This document shows, in pieces, positions 10,638 to 60,050 of a stretch of DNA of 64,000 nt. Where the stretch lies: contig NZ_JAMPKY010000004.1 of the NCBI RefSeq assembly GCF_039962255.1, positions 1 through 64,000 on the forward strand, written 5' to 3'. Within the stretch, counting starts at the first letter, position 1; each line of letters opens with the position of its first letter. The position numbers were made by a program, and so were the translations under genes. The notes beneath the pieces were generated by a model. The model worked only from the letters and a program-made list of their open reading frames with translations. It was not told the DNA's origin and made no database searches. Source of the stretch: Leptolyngbya subtilissima AS-A7 (GTDB lineage: Bacteria; Cyanobacteriota; Cyanobacteriia; Phormidesmidales; Phormidesmidaceae).

Positions 10638-10934
10638 AGGCTTTGCTGCAAAATAGTGTCAACAAGCATTCACTCTGATTTGCGAGCCAATGTCAAGGTT
10701 AAAACCAGGATTATTTTCATCAGCAGGTCTGGCCTTGGCAGCAATTTCAGAGAGTAAACTAAGGATGGAAACGTGTAGAACCCCTGCCCAGGAATGCTTT
10801 TGGCAAAATCTCGATCTTTATTAGCGGTCGTTTCTAAGGATAATTTGGCATTAAAAACTGCAGTCTTAATGCAACTGTTTGCCGATTGTGTAATATAGCT
10901 AAGAAGATTTTTGCCGTTACTTGGGCAAGCACTA
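10638..10934. promoter_or_regulatory. Divergent exbB / tonB promoter region
   Basis: This is the only sizeable spacer from which both arms of the iron cluster could be transcribed. On the plus strand, TAATATAGCT near 10891-10900 is a fair -10 candidate for tonB. An imperfect palindrome centred on ACTGCAGT (10857-10864), flanked by TTAA on both sides with one extra base, could be an operator. I do not see a convincing Fur box (GATAATGATAATCATTATC-like), so iron control through Fur is neither shown nor excluded. Confidence 0.4.
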
Positions 10935-12587
10935 ATGAGTCTTTCAGAGATTTGCAGTCAACAACACCAGCACGAGCAGCAAAAACTCCGCAAGATTCTG
11001 CTTTGGGGAATTTTAGGTTCCGTGGGAGTGCATGGGGTAGGTTTTGGCCTCAGTCAGCTCGATTTTTGGCAGAGGCTGGCTGCCGATGACATTGAGCCAA
11101 TCGAGCTGATTGTCGTCGAACCCCTGTCCGATACACCTGAAGCCATTCCCGACCCTAACCTGCCCGCCGAACTCAGCACCGAAGTCAATGACTCCGCACC
11201 AGGGGGTGGCGGCGGTGGGGGTGGCGGCGGTGGGGGTGGCGGCGGTGGGGGTGGAAACTTTACGGCAGCTCGGGTCATATCACCCCCTGCCCCTGCCCGG
11301 GTCGCACCTCCTGTAGAGCGGGTTGAAGCAAAGCCTGAGCCGGTGCGAAACACCCAAGCCGATTCAGTCGTTGAGGAACTTGAAGCTGAGCCAGAAATCT
11401 CAAAAGAAGAGCCAGAGACTGAGCCAGAAATTTCAGAAACAGAAGAGCCAGAAACTGAGCCAGAAATCTCAGAAGAAGAACCAGAGACTGAGCCAGAAAC
11501 CTCAGAAACAGAAGACCTAGAACAAGAATCTCTAACCGCTGAATCTACGGAATCTCAGGCTGAGAACCTGCGCGACTTTTTGCAGCGTCTGCGCGATGCA
11601 CAAGCTCAGACCGCAGCTGACTCAGCTGCTGCTGAAAATGGTGTTGCTAGAGACGGCAATGGATTGGCCACTGCCCCTTCCAACGGCAGCGGTGGCACCG
11701 GCAGTGGTAGCGGCATCGGTAGCGGTAGTGGCACCGGCAGCGGTAGCGGCACCGGCAGCGGTAGTAGCTCTGGCAGTGGTAGCGGTAGCGGCACTGGCAG
11801 CGGTAGTGGTAGCGGCTCCGGCAGCGGTAGTGGTAGCGGCTCCGGACAAGGTTCTCGCACTGTAGCCTGTCAAAACTGCGTGCGTCCCGACTATCCTCAA
11901 AGCGCTCTGGATGCCGGTGCTGAAGGCCAACCCATGGTCAGCGTCGATATCAATCCCGACGGCAGCGTTCGCAGTGTCACCCTAACTCGCTCCAGTGGCA
12001 ACCCGGCAATCGATCAAGCCGCCATTCAGGCTGCCCGTAACTCACAATTTCAGCCCGTTAGCGGCGGAGCCAGTGTTCCCATCGAGTATGACCTGACCAT
12101 TGAAGGGTCGCGTCGCAACCGCGATGCCCGTCGTCGGGGCGATCGCCAAGCGGTAGAGCTACCGCCAGAGGCCAACCCTACCCCCGAGACAGCAACAAAC
12201 GAGCCCAGCCCCGTACCAACGCCCACGCCGACGCCACCTGTTGAGGCTGATGAGCCAGCCGCGGCTCCAACTCCACCAGCGGCGTCAGAACCAGAGCCCG
12301 CGGAGTCAGCACCCGTAGAGGCAGAGCCCGCAGAGCCAGAACCTGTAGAGCCGAAACCCGCAGAGGCAGCAGAGCCCGCACCCGCAGAGCCAGAGCCCGC
12401 ACCAGCGAGCCCGCCGCCGGTGCAAGCGCCTACCCCTAGTCCACCCGCGCCTAGCGCTCCCCCACCGCCAGCTCCTGCGGCCCCGGCGGCTCCGCCACCC
12501 GCGCCAGTTGCACCACCCTCACCGCCCCCGGCTAGTCCTCCGCCAGCAGCGGAGCCGGCTCCGTCAGCTGCACCAACTGGGGAGTAG
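10935..12587 (+). CDS. tonB: Energy transducer TonB with long low-complexity linkers and a C-terminal Pro-rich tail
   Basis: Links the ExbBD motor to the outer-membrane receptor. ATG at 10935 (MSLSEICSQQ) is preferred over the upstream TTG. Order: cytoplasmic N-terminus, one transmembrane helix at about residues 20-38, an unbroken run of about 18 glycines (near residue 90-107), Glu/Pro repeats of the type EPEISEEEPETE (about 130-190), a (GS)n stretch (about 240-305), and the TonB C-terminal domain (about 308-375; RPDYPQSALDAGAEGQPMVS). Unusually, about 165 residues rich in Pro, Ala and Glu follow the domain. In classical TonB the Pro/Glu linker precedes it and the domain is terminal. At 550 residues it is twice the usual size. 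Divergent from exbB. Confidence 0.9.
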   Translation: MSLSEICSQQHQHEQQKLRKILLWGILGSVGVHGVGFGLSQLDFWQRLAADDIEPIELIVVEPLSDTPEAIPDPNLPAELSTEVNDSAPGGGGGGGGGGGGGGGGGGNFTAARVISPPAPARVAPPVERVEAKPEPVRNTQADSVVEELEAEPEISKEEPETEPEISETEEPETEPEISEEEPETEPETSETEDLEQESLTAESTESQAENLRDFLQRLRDAQAQTAADSAAAENGVARDGNGLATAPSNGSGGTGSGSGIGSGSGTGSGSGTGSGSSSGSGSGSGTGSGSGSGSGSGSGSGSGQGSRTVACQNCVRPDYPQSALDAGAEGQPMVSVDINPDGSVRSVTLTRSSGNPAIDQAAIQAARNSQFQPVSGGASVPIEYDLTIEGSRRNRDARRRGDRQAVELPPEANPTPETATNEPSPVPTPTPTPPVEADEPAAAPTPPAASEPEPAESAPVEAEPAEPEPVEPKPAEAAEPAPAEPEPAPASPPPVQAPTPSPPAPSAPPPPAPAAPAAPPPAPVAPPSPPPASPPPAAEPAPSAAPTGE

Positions 12588-57481: not shown

Positions 57482-58540
57482 CTATGACGGTGTGGAGCCT
57501 TGCCCTTGGGTGCTATCAACAACGTAGCGATCGCGCCCCTGCTGCTTAGCGGCATAGAGCGCCCGATCGGCACTGGCAATGAGTTGCTTGGGCGACCCGA
57601 TGGTGGTGGGTATTAGGCTAGCAACACCCAAACTAATCGAAACAACGGTGCTGACTGTTGAGGTCTCGTGGGGAATGGCTAGGGCTTTAACGGCCTGTTG
57701 AATTTGCTCTGCGATCGCAGTTGCGCCAAACAAATCAGTATTGGGTAAAACAACGGCAAATTCTTCGCCCCCGTAGCGGGCCACCACATCAGTCGTTCGT
57801 TCAACTGTTGATTTAACCGTCTGAGCAATGCTAATCAAGCAGTCATCACCCATTTGATGACCGTAGTAATCGTTGTAGCGTTTGAACGCGTCAACATCGA
57901 ACATAATTAATGAGAGCCGCTGCTGGCTGCGTAGGGCGCGCCGCCATTCTTGCTCTAGATAGTCATCAAATTTTCGTCGATTGGCGATTTGAGTGAGGCT
58001 ATCTACGGTGGCTAACTTTTCTAACTTTGTATTAGCGGCCTGAAGAGATTGCTCAAGACGACGGCGCTCTGTGCTGTCAAAAACAAATAAGTAGTAGCCA
58101 ACTACCTCCTGGTCACTGCTGAAGGCTGGCGTTAAACAACTGGTGAGATAGACATAGTCACCATTGCGATAGACCATTCCAAATTCAAAGCTTTGCGGCT
58201 CTCCCTTTAAAACGCGCTCAACATAGTCTTTGACAGAGGCGTATGCTTCTTCACCAATTACATCCCAGACGTATTTATTTAGAATGCTTTCTCGAGAACG
58301 GTTGAAGCGTACTTCATAAAACCGGTTGACAAACTGGTATCGTCGCTCGGCGTCGACAAAGGCAATACCCGCGTCGGTAGAGTTGAGAATTTGCTGAAGC
58401 TGTTCGTTACTTGCGCGCAGGGTCGCTTCCGTCTGGGCACGTTCTTGCTGTTCCAGTTTCAGTTGAGCCTTGGTTTGCTCGAGTTCTAGAGCAAGCTGTT
58501 TGACCCGCTGTTTCAGCGTTGAGATGTAATCAGCATCCAT
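57482..58540 (-). CDS. PAS-GGDEF diguanylate cyclase
   Basis: 352 residues: coiled coil (1-45; LKQRVKQLALELEQTKAQLK), PAS with PAC (about 45-165), and GGDEF (about 175-340). The cyclase has DSLTQIANRRKFDDYLEQEW, DVDAFKRYNDYYGHQMGDDC and active site RYGGEEFAVVL, with RTTD five residues before it as an RxxD product-inhibition site. Its cyclase domain closely resembles that of the 1361-residue protein (LEQEWRR/LQQEWGR, AAKQQGRDRY ending), suggesting duplication within the genome. No transmembrane segment. Confidence 0.93.
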   Translation of the reverse strand: MDADYISTLKQRVKQLALELEQTKAQLKLEQQERAQTEATLRASNEQLQQILNSTDAGIAFVDAERRYQFVNRFYEVRFNRSRESILNKYVWDVIGEEAYASVKDYVERVLKGEPQSFEFGMVYRNGDYVYLTSCLTPAFSSDQEVVGYYLFVFDSTERRRLEQSLQAANTKLEKLATVDSLTQIANRRKFDDYLEQEWRRALRSQQRLSLIMFDVDAFKRYNDYYGHQMGDDCLISIAQTVKSTVERTTDVVARYGGEEFAVVLPNTDLFGATAIAEQIQQAVKALAIPHETSTVSTVVSISLGVASLIPTTIGSPKQLIASADRALYAAKQQGRDRYVVDSTQGQGSTPS

Positions 58541-58736: not shown

Positions 58737-60050
58737 CTATTCTTCTTCCTCAGAATATTCCTCTTCCTCGGATTCTTCTTCGGCGTACTCCTCCTCCTCT
58801 TCCTCAGAATATTCCTCTTCCTCGGATTCTTCTTCGGTGTACTCTTCCTCAGACTCCTCTTCCGCGTACTCTTCTTCAGATTCCTCCTCGGCGTACTCTT
58901 CTTCGGATTCTTCTACGGCCTCGTCTTCCTCAGTTGCCTCTTCATCGCTGCTGCCGTAGCCGAAGCTATAAGATTCATCAACGGCGTACTCTTGGCAAAG
59001 AGCGTCTAGCTCGGCGACAAACTCGGTACCGTCCTCAACGCTGAGGTCAAAGTTGAGGATGTTGAGCAAATAGGGACTGCCTTCGTCTTCGTTGTAGTCG
59101 TAGTCGAAGTAATAGTCGTCTTCGGTTTCGACGTAGGTGAGGCAGAGGGCAGCAAGCGCGTCGGTGAAGCCTTCGGGGTCTTCGGTATGAATATAAAAGT
59201 CGTACAGCAAGAGCGAGCATTCGTCGGCGAAGAATGACTCGTCCTCTTCCCAAACTTCGGCGCTAAAGTCGAGATCGCTGAGAGACTTGATAATCCAGGA
59301 GTCGTGGCCGTTGTAGTCGTCGTGGATGACGTAGTCGTAGGGAATGTAGCAGTAGCCGCGATCGCCCCACTCTGGCCCCCAGGAGTTGCGCACAATAAAG
59401 AAGCGGTCTTTGTCGGAGTAGCCGACGCAGAGCATAGCGTGCCAGCCGTGGGTTTCGCGCACGTTGTCGGAGCGCTTGGGCTGAGGGACTCGGCCTTTGT
59501 TGCGGGTGGCCTCGTCAAACGATTCAAAGGTGTTGAGGGCGAAGGCGATTGGGTAGCCTTCGGCCAGGGTATGTCGCCAGAGGTCTAGGTCGGTGTCGAT
59601 GGTCTCAGTTTCGACAATTTTGAAGTTAGAGGCGTGGTCATAGGCCCCGGTGTCGGGCTCGGTGAAGATTAGCTCTTCGTCATTGGGCCAGAGGTCTTCG
59701 GAGCAGGCCCCGTGCTGCATTAGGGTTTCGATCGCACAACGCATCTGTGTGCCAGCATCTTCGTTGTGGCTACCGGTTTGCGATCGCGCGTTGTAATAGA
59801 CAAACAGACGGCTGACGTTACCAGCATCACCCAGATCGCGCTTGGCCAGATATTCGTAGGCCCCTACAAAGGCATTGGCCACGCAGCTATTGCCCACCTG
59901 CGCTTCCACTTCAGTCATGTGGTGGCGTAAATCGACCCGGCCCGGCAACTCCTCTTTCCCAAATCGGCCAATCTGGTGATGCTTAACGTCGTCCGGCTTT
60001 TGCCCCGGTTGATAACCGCCAATGCGAAACTTACGGGTCTGCGTAAACAT
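58737..60050 (-). CDS. Papain-like C1 cysteine protease with extreme acidic tail
   Basis: 437 residues from ATG 60050 (MFTQTRKFRIGG), preferred over the 26-residue longer start because AAGG precedes it. No signal peptide, so probably cytosolic. Papain-type catalytic sites are present: QVGNSCVANAFVGAYEYLA (active Cys), GWHAMLCVGYSDKDRFFIVR (His) and NSWGPEWGDRGYCYIPYDYV (Asn). Two short acidic modules follow (SLLLYDFYIHTEDPEGFTDA, LLNILNFDLSVEDGTEFVAE), each resembling a small repeated unit. The last 69 residues contain only D, E, S, Y, A, T and V, made of EEEYAEEESEE units, encoded by tandem DNA repeats with a 57-base period. The target and the tail's role are unknown. Confidence 0.85.
   Translation of the reverse strand: MFTQTRKFRIGGYQPGQKPDDVKHHQIGRFGKEELPGRVDLRHHMTEVEAQVGNSCVANAFVGAYEYLAKRDLGDAGNVSRLFVYYNARSQTGSHNEDAGTQMRCAIETLMQHGACSEDLWPNDEELIFTEPDTGAYDHASNFKIVETETIDTDLDLWRHTLAEGYPIAFALNTFESFDEATRNKGRVPQPKRSDNVRETHGWHAMLCVGYSDKDRFFIVRNSWGPEWGDRGYCYIPYDYVIHDDYNGHDSWIIKSLSDLDFSAEVWEEDESFFADECSLLLYDFYIHTEDPEGFTDALAALCLTYVETEDDYYFDYDYNEDEGSPYLLNILNFDLSVEDGTEFVAELDALCQEYAVDESYSFGYGSSDEEATEEDEAVEESEEEYAEEESEEEYAEEESEEEYTEEESEEEEYSEEEEEEYAEEESEEEEYSEEEE

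Follow-up and report, generated by a model that had tools for sequence, protein, structure and literature searches.

What use might a probably intracellular bacterial papain-like protease have for a C-terminal tail that consists mostly of Glu? The question is raised by an open reading frame of 437 aa at 58737–60050 on the minus strand of the window, by which we mean the whole stretch of 64,000 nucleotides that was analysed. The reading frame is a complete CDS (437 aa plus stop). The relative L003 supports the start at 60050, as the first possible start (ATG, GTG or TTG) past its upstream stop is the same Met. The Pfam profile Peptidase_C1 matched residues 36–237 (E = 1.3e-9; 38.9 bits against a curated cut-off of 20.7), and this gene gave the sole C1 match at E ≤ 0.001 in the 5.66-Mb genome; no NCBIfam family matched the protein. 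Its nearest solved relative is xylellain of Xylella fastidiosa (PDB 3ois; phmmer E 3.5e-32). Five whole-protein models were generated with AlphaFold2, of which the best had a mean pLDDT of 75.6 and two stood at 52 and 45. The predicted papain fold aligned with 3ois over residues 5–259 (VIA-align Z 32.9, rmsd 2.1, 249 aligned residues, 33% identity), and Foldseek matched the model to the same structure with an E of 2e-23. Profile, sequence and structural matches together place the catalytic domain at residues 35–258 (59277–59948, minus strand), with a net charge of −16.

All three catalytic residues are present, as the initial annotation stated: Cys56 (59883–59885), His204 (59439–59441) and Asn222 (59385–59387), all on the minus strand, are invariant across the alignment (35 of 35 proteins). 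The same holds for Gln51 (59898–59900, minus strand), the candidate oxyanion-hole Gln. In papain, the oxyanion-hole Gln lies six residues ahead of the catalytic Cys. The spacing is likewise six in xylellain, as read from its phmmer alignment with the window protein, and in the deeper tailed relatives L062, L079 and L083, while Gln51 precedes Cys56 by five residues in the window subclade; the loop between them (59883–59900 in the window) is thus one residue shorter there than in these three relatives. Judged from its sequence, the window protein is a C1A (papain-family) peptidase. Inspection by eye found no hydrophobic stretch at its N-terminus, in agreement with the earlier statement that a signal peptide is lacking. 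Signal peptides are absent from the intracellular members of the bacterial C1A family according to the available part of PMC10380794, and the window peptidase is probably cell-internal. The view that such enzymes are uncommon in bacteria was too strong, as the same portion of that source places the family in every major bacterial phylum with a single exception and describes bacterial C1A peptidases as widespread and often spread by transfer.

The tail itself spans residues 369–437 (58740–58946, minus strand) and was delimited by composition and model pLDDT. Its 69 residues comprise 46 Glu, seven Ser, six Tyr, five Ala, two Asp, two Thr and one Val, that is 48 acidic and no basic residues, just as the initial annotation of an acidic Glu/Ser/Tyr tail had described. 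In the AlphaFold2 model the tail block has a pLDDT of 25–38, and because such low values are the usual sign of disorder, the tail is predicted to be disordered. It is built from repeats, as had been proposed, but the unit is not 57 bases long: TRF detected a direct repeat of 54 bases within the tail (58744–58850, minus strand; 2.0 copies, 96%), and a weaker 27-base unit is also present. The Tyr residues are regularly spaced in the window protein, with gaps of 9, 9, 10, 8 and 10, but this regularity, to which attention had been drawn, is not conserved among relatives; the tails of L014 and L022 have no Tyr, and that of L008 has one. A pattern for interrupted Glu runs had four matches in the 5.66-Mb genome, three within the window tail and one outside the gene, and the reversed control pattern had none in the same genome. 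The window tail therefore exceeds chance expectation.

To place the tail in an evolutionary setting, we compared protease domains across genomes. A scan of GTDB species genomes yielded 44 loci, found in Cyanobacteriota, Bacteroidota (Emticicia, Runella, Arcicella, Lacihabitans and others) and Gammaproteobacteria (Thiothrix and one MAG), most of which end in an acidic tail that ranges from a few residues up to long poly-Glu. The dataset for defining a clade held 133 distinct proteins, with identical protease domains counted once here and in the other sets; 62 of them share 44% identity or more with the window domain, and the next has 41.5%. We scored as an acidic tract any 20-residue stretch past the domain in which Asp and Glu make up at least half of the residues or, more strictly, 65%. 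Among the unbroken proteins at or above 44% identity, a tract was present in 58 of 58 (57 relatives plus the window protein; L026 and L040, cut by contig ends with the tail still visible, are included), and 46 of these passed at 65%. One of the 12 that did not is L034; the other 11, whose tail is short or missing, were counted by virtue of their acidic accessory domain. Below 44% identity none of 71 proteins passed at either threshold, the top 20-residue value being 0.35, and 28 of the 71 have fewer than 20 residues past the domain. The four copies left out of the 58 (L032, L033, L044 and L061) are broken or split, in that their open frame stops within the catalytic domain or soon after the accessory domain has begun; this reflects either occasional loss of the gene or assembly errors at these sites.

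Two later finds with more than 44% identity, L163 from a Deinococcus plasmid and L164 from IMG/VR, are also tailed, so that tailed proteins occur in Cyanobacteriota, Bacteroidota, Gammaproteobacteria and Deinococcus. In the later set, 57 distinct proteins below 44% identity, one of which (L167) is cut by a contig end, had no acidic stretch beyond two residues; two proteins flagged in this set have just one or two residues past the domain. When 112 protease domains were placed in a tree, the tailed proteins formed one side of one branch (SH-aLRT 96); the tree is unrooted and was built by a quick method, with warnings that the long branch L144 meets the tailed group and that L109 and L080 are long branches within it. 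The GTDB scan used six peptide patterns, of which the tail, the accessory domain and the sequence immediately ahead of the latter contributed one each, and both this pattern set and the whole-protein query lean towards tailed proteins. However, searches with the protease domain only and with patterns from that domain gave the same division into tailed and untailed proteins, which holds among the matches listed (the best 30 at most per search). The possibility raised at the outset that all relatives lack the tail and that it reflects slippage only does not hold, given 58 tracts in 58 proteins and long tails in several phyla; because of the former, the tail is not merely a product of recent local slippage. 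We hold it to be very likely that the tailed C1A peptidases constitute a single bacterial clade with a disordered polyanionic tract past the catalytic domain, and that they are probably intracellular. Because one clade is present in several phyla, the gene has probably spread by transfer.

Between protease and tail lies an accessory domain (residues 276–366; 58953–59225, minus strand), which was delimited from the predicted model and hhalign. Both alone and in the whole protein it is predicted as a beta-alpha-beta-beta-alpha-beta, ferredoxin-like fold, with block pLDDT values of 84–92 over the fold and 78 at its end, and hhalign shows its halves to be homologous to each other (probability 98.6 local, 97.7 global). 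No Pfam match to the domain was over the cut-off. In comparisons with ACT-, NikR- and PII-like folds the best natural entries reached Z 8–9 (2nyi, 3lou and 3qsi), indicating a common arrangement only, and the best Foldseek E was 1.6e-3. We assign the domain to no family, because its model matched many unrelated folds at Z 7–9, which is generic similarity. We considered and rejected the window protein as a C1-TerB peptidase, because Pfam matched TerB neither to the protein nor to its C-terminal part and a ferredoxin-like fold is predicted there.

The domain at this place differs among relatives. TerB follows the C1 domain in L163 (24.9 bits; Pfam cut-off 24.4), scores just below the cut-off in L065 (24.2 bits in a slightly mistyped copy with the tail removed, no match with the tail on) and lies below it in L080 (22.8 bits). 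In L085–L087, a helical-looking end domain (by eye) follows an acidic stretch and takes the place of the tail; TerB was not matched in L085, the sole one of the three tested. L109 has no helical or TerB-like domain in its sequence, and some other clade members have mostly acidic sequence past the protease. The gammaproteobacterial proteins hold a second copy of the window-type accessory domain, in which they end, behind an acidic linker. Because ferredoxin-like, TerB and helical-looking variants all occur in the clade, the acidic tract is kept and the neighbouring domain varies.

Next, we considered the tails in the window's subclade, a set of 31 that leaves out the Thiothrix-type proteins L029 and L034–L036. 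Twenty-two have at least 27 residues, eight have 6–13, and one member (L039, Runella defluvii) has none; a long tail is therefore not essential. Acidic tracts of more than 100 residues are found in L064/L084, L066, L067, L083 and L109. Proteins whose protease domains are 96–98% identical to that of the window protein vary in post-domain length from 159 to 183 residues, which implies that tail length turns over far faster than the enzyme. The units also differ: the window tail is of EEEYAEEES type, L008 repeats EEEEDS, L014, L022 and L109 have poly-Glu, L064 and L164 have DSYEE (DSYEE-like in L164), and L163 has a DEEDI repeat. On the evidence of these sequences, tail length is driven by repeat expansion, and lineages differ in their repeat unit yet stay acidic. 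The 31 tails total 1385 residues, with 883 Glu and 154 Asp. Lys and Arg add up to 34; by our own count, 26 of them lie in basic C-terminal tips and eight in the interior. The acidic tail ends in four or five Lys/Arg in the Bacteroidota proteins L023, L024, L025, L042 and L043, and the cyanobacterial tails among the loci of the GTDB scan are without a terminal basic cluster, except that L015 terminates in Lys-Arg. Glu is encoded by a mixture of both codons (570 GAA, 313 GAG); because this mixing is partly periodic, the L022 tail being an alternation of GAA and GAG, part of the pattern reflects repeat expansion rather than slow substitution under selection.

These data bear on the reading that the tail has no function and that repeats slip in a permissive C-terminus while length drifts. 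The rapid change in post-domain length, the existence of short-unit arrays such as that of L022 and the tail-free L039 all fit drift, but acidity is kept across phyla despite different repeat units, Lys and Arg make up only eight of 1385 residues in the interior although Lys is one transition from Glu, and the trait is limited to one group on the tree. We consider absence of function highly improbable. Because different repeat units all stay acidic, we infer instead that selection acts on net negative charge rather than on sequence and that the tail works through electrostatics. Since charge is kept and sequence, length and Tyr spacing are not, a docking motif is unlikely and an electrostatic element is the best reading.

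How is charge distributed over the rest of the enzyme? The window protein has a net charge of about −93, made up of +3 in residues 1–34, −16 in residues 35–258, −33 in residues 259–369 and −47 in residues 370–437. The catalytic domain has a mean charge of −16.6 in 58 clade proteins compared with −3.2 in 54 proteins outside (p 2e-18, Mann-Whitney). For the 31 residues ahead of the domain the mean is +4.2 compared with +2.4 (p 0.0014); both p-values are too strong because the proteins are related. This comparison used 112 of the 133 proteins, those without a clear domain start having been dropped, and its 58 clade members include the broken copies L032, L044 and L061. Because the catalytic domain is acidic too, negative charge characterizes the enzyme as a whole.

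The basic segment at the N-terminus (residues 1–34, net +3; 59949–60050, minus strand) was delimited by structural alignment with the N-terminal part of xylellain 3ois, and it also overlays the pro-segments of several pro-enzymes. In xylellain, the N-terminal segment reportedly covers the active site. Because this segment is basic, intramolecular regulation is the main rival to the capture of outside partners that we prefer: the acidic tail might bind its own N-terminal segment, or a basic patch, and thereby open or close the cleft. Consistent with this idea, a charge of +3 or more ahead of the domain is found in 53 of 58 clade proteins compared with 28 of 54 outside, in a protein that is otherwise as negative as described, and L085–L087, with their helical-looking end instead of a tail, have an N-terminal charge of −2 to −4. 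There is also a precedent in the RNA chaperone Hfq, whose disordered acidic C-terminus autoregulates the protein, its tip binding basic core residues in competition with nucleic acid, as described in the available part of PMC5606850. However, the core of the window protein has a net negative charge, whereas the Hfq core residues in that account (PMC5606850) are basic, and within the clade the charge of the N-terminal segment shows no covariation with that of the post-domain part (Spearman rho −0.005, p 0.97, n = 55). The short-tailed L017, L019, L020, L027, L037 and L045 retain +4 to +7, the tailed L079 (−1) and L109 (0) are missing the basic segment, and about half of the untailed proteins (the 28 of 54 mentioned above) have one as well. 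The case for direct autoinhibition of the core, a role suggested in the initial annotation, is weakened because the core is acidic, although a local basic patch may exist, and because the charge of the N-terminal segment does not follow that of the post-domain part. Overall, we regard autoregulation as unlikely, and we rank passive solubility, cation sensing and absence of function as weaker rivals still.

The tail might instead be a passive element, its one task being to maintain hydration and an extended form in a stand-alone cytosolic protease and to make it hard to cleave. Such a role would agree with a tail that is disordered in the model and in which charge matters while sequence and length hardly do, and resistance to proteolysis is given as a proposed reason for D/E tracts in the available part of PMC9953673. 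Against it, the tract is confined to one clade among the C1 peptidases examined (none of the 71 outside), and the rest of the genome seldom shows the acidic pattern, with the single match outside the gene, so that a general need is not evident; we judge this role to be quite unlikely. The proposal that the tail senses divalent cations or polycations, collapsing upon binding of Ca2+, Mg2+ or polyamines and so switching the enzyme, draws on the statement in that portion of PMC9953673 that cation valency affects D/E tracts more strongly than K/R tracts, and on the presence in some relatives (in L163 over the Pfam cut-off) of TerB, a family named for tellurite resistance. The existence of short-tailed members speaks against a sensor, which seems to us very unlikely. 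Finally, mimicry of nucleic acid by the tail has no specific support.

By elimination, we prefer an outside cationic partner. Given the net negative charge of the core, the tail would not be expected to rest on its surface, except at a local basic patch, should there be one. Therefore, our working hypothesis is that the tail and the acidic catalytic domain would jointly attract cationic proteins or peptides, that the captured substrates, or a cationic regulator, would be held near the cleft, and that the accessory domain, ferredoxin-like here and TerB elsewhere, may tune activity. Taken as a whole, a single-clade C1A peptidase with a charge-selected tail that captures cationic partners is our best explanation, which we put forward tentatively and at somewhat less than even chances. 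The capture step by itself, in which tail and acidic domain hold cationic partners near the cleft, is possible and carries appreciable doubt. A broader idea, which we offer as slightly more doubtful again, is that of a charge-only module in one clade of cytosolic cathepsin-like proteases, in which each lineage, selected for net charge alone, re-invents a polyelectrolyte tail from new repeats to recruit cationic proteins or peptides to an acidic core, with swappable regulatory domains between. It is important to note that a pure anion model does not explain the basic C-terminal clusters of the Bacteroidota tails, which count against it, and that net charge says nothing about the charge of the cleft itself on which the capture reading depends.

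Genomic context was examined by clustering of ORFs around the 44 related loci and the window gene (in L026, the gene frame runs off the contig). In this set no operon or partner gene was found, and neighbours were common to near relatives only, with two weak exceptions: a carbonic-anhydrase-like cluster (by eye) lies near the gene, in differing positions, in the cyanobacterial L021 and three Lacihabitans loci, and one ORF cluster touches nine loci and is the next listed ORF in one (L033). The next downstream gene in the window (57482–58540) looks GGDEF-like by eye; among the nearest relatives it occupies the same position in L002, L003, L004 and L006, but not in L005, so the locus is inherited vertically at that depth. 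Elsewhere in the window, an ORF at 10911–12587 is rich in tandem Gly, Glu/Pro and Gly/Ser repeats and has a stretch resembling a TonB C-terminal domain (by eye).

We also considered mobile elements and defence. A role as an anti-phage defence protein was rejected, as no PADLOC-DB family matched at E up to 1. The protein matched phrog_16701 in PHROGs, annotated 'peptidase' and of the kind 'other' (E 4.1e-8), and three phage records contain C1 peptidases with 26–36% identity over about half of the query. Two of these, H24 (LC667451.1, 151610–152323; Burkholderia phage FLC9) and H23 (LR756511.1, 449319–450035), are 34–36% identical to the window protein and cover its residues 29–258 and 2–240, respectively. 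Among 80 loci kept of 85 in IMG/VR, L164 was the sole tailed one; it lies near the end of a 73.7-kb contig and may be host DNA. A plasmid search matched 22 records, and one of them (H1) was examined. L163 (3953–5362), a C1-TerB member whose tail is a DEEDI repeat, is encoded on a Deinococcus plasmid of 523 kb, which is a possible vehicle of transfer for the tailed gene.

The initial annotation rightly judged the tail unfamiliar. C1A and C1-TerB peptidases have been published, and in the literature on such tails, TerB, autoinhibition and xylellain we found no report of this tail or of the tailed clade. The clade provides a clean comparative system, in which closely related enzymes have tails from none to more than 100 residues, together with several repeat units and at least two accessory domains. 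As such, it lets one ask if the charge of a disordered region can be under selection largely independently of the underlying sequence, and what a charged disordered region does for an enzyme.

Among known systems, xylellain shares the short bacterial papain-like fold with the window protein and has one extra residue between Gln and Cys. Its chain has 291 residues, and the match stops near its end, at residues 257–259 of the 437 of the window protein; xylellain is therefore without a counterpart of the accessory domain or the tail. The 'short bacterial C1-terB peptidases' named in PMC10380794 consist of a C1A domain followed by TerB, and the tailed clade holds such members, for example L163, whereas in the window protein a predicted ferredoxin-like domain replaces TerB. 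The available part of that source mentions no acidic tail on C1-terB peptidases, and they may belong to the same clade as the tailed members. Hfq likewise is a bacterial protein with a disordered acidic C-terminus whose charge is held to be the active property, as far as the available text of PMC5606850 describes it; its tip binds a basic core, whereas the window protein is a protease with a net acidic core. The eukaryotic D/E-repeat proteins described in the available part of PMC9953673 have long acidic tracts that favour Glu over Asp, as do the tails of the clade (883 compared with 154). In contrast to those repeats, the tracts of the tailed clade are interrupted by Ser, Tyr and other residues, and they are bacterial, are carried by a peptidase and mark one clade of those examined.
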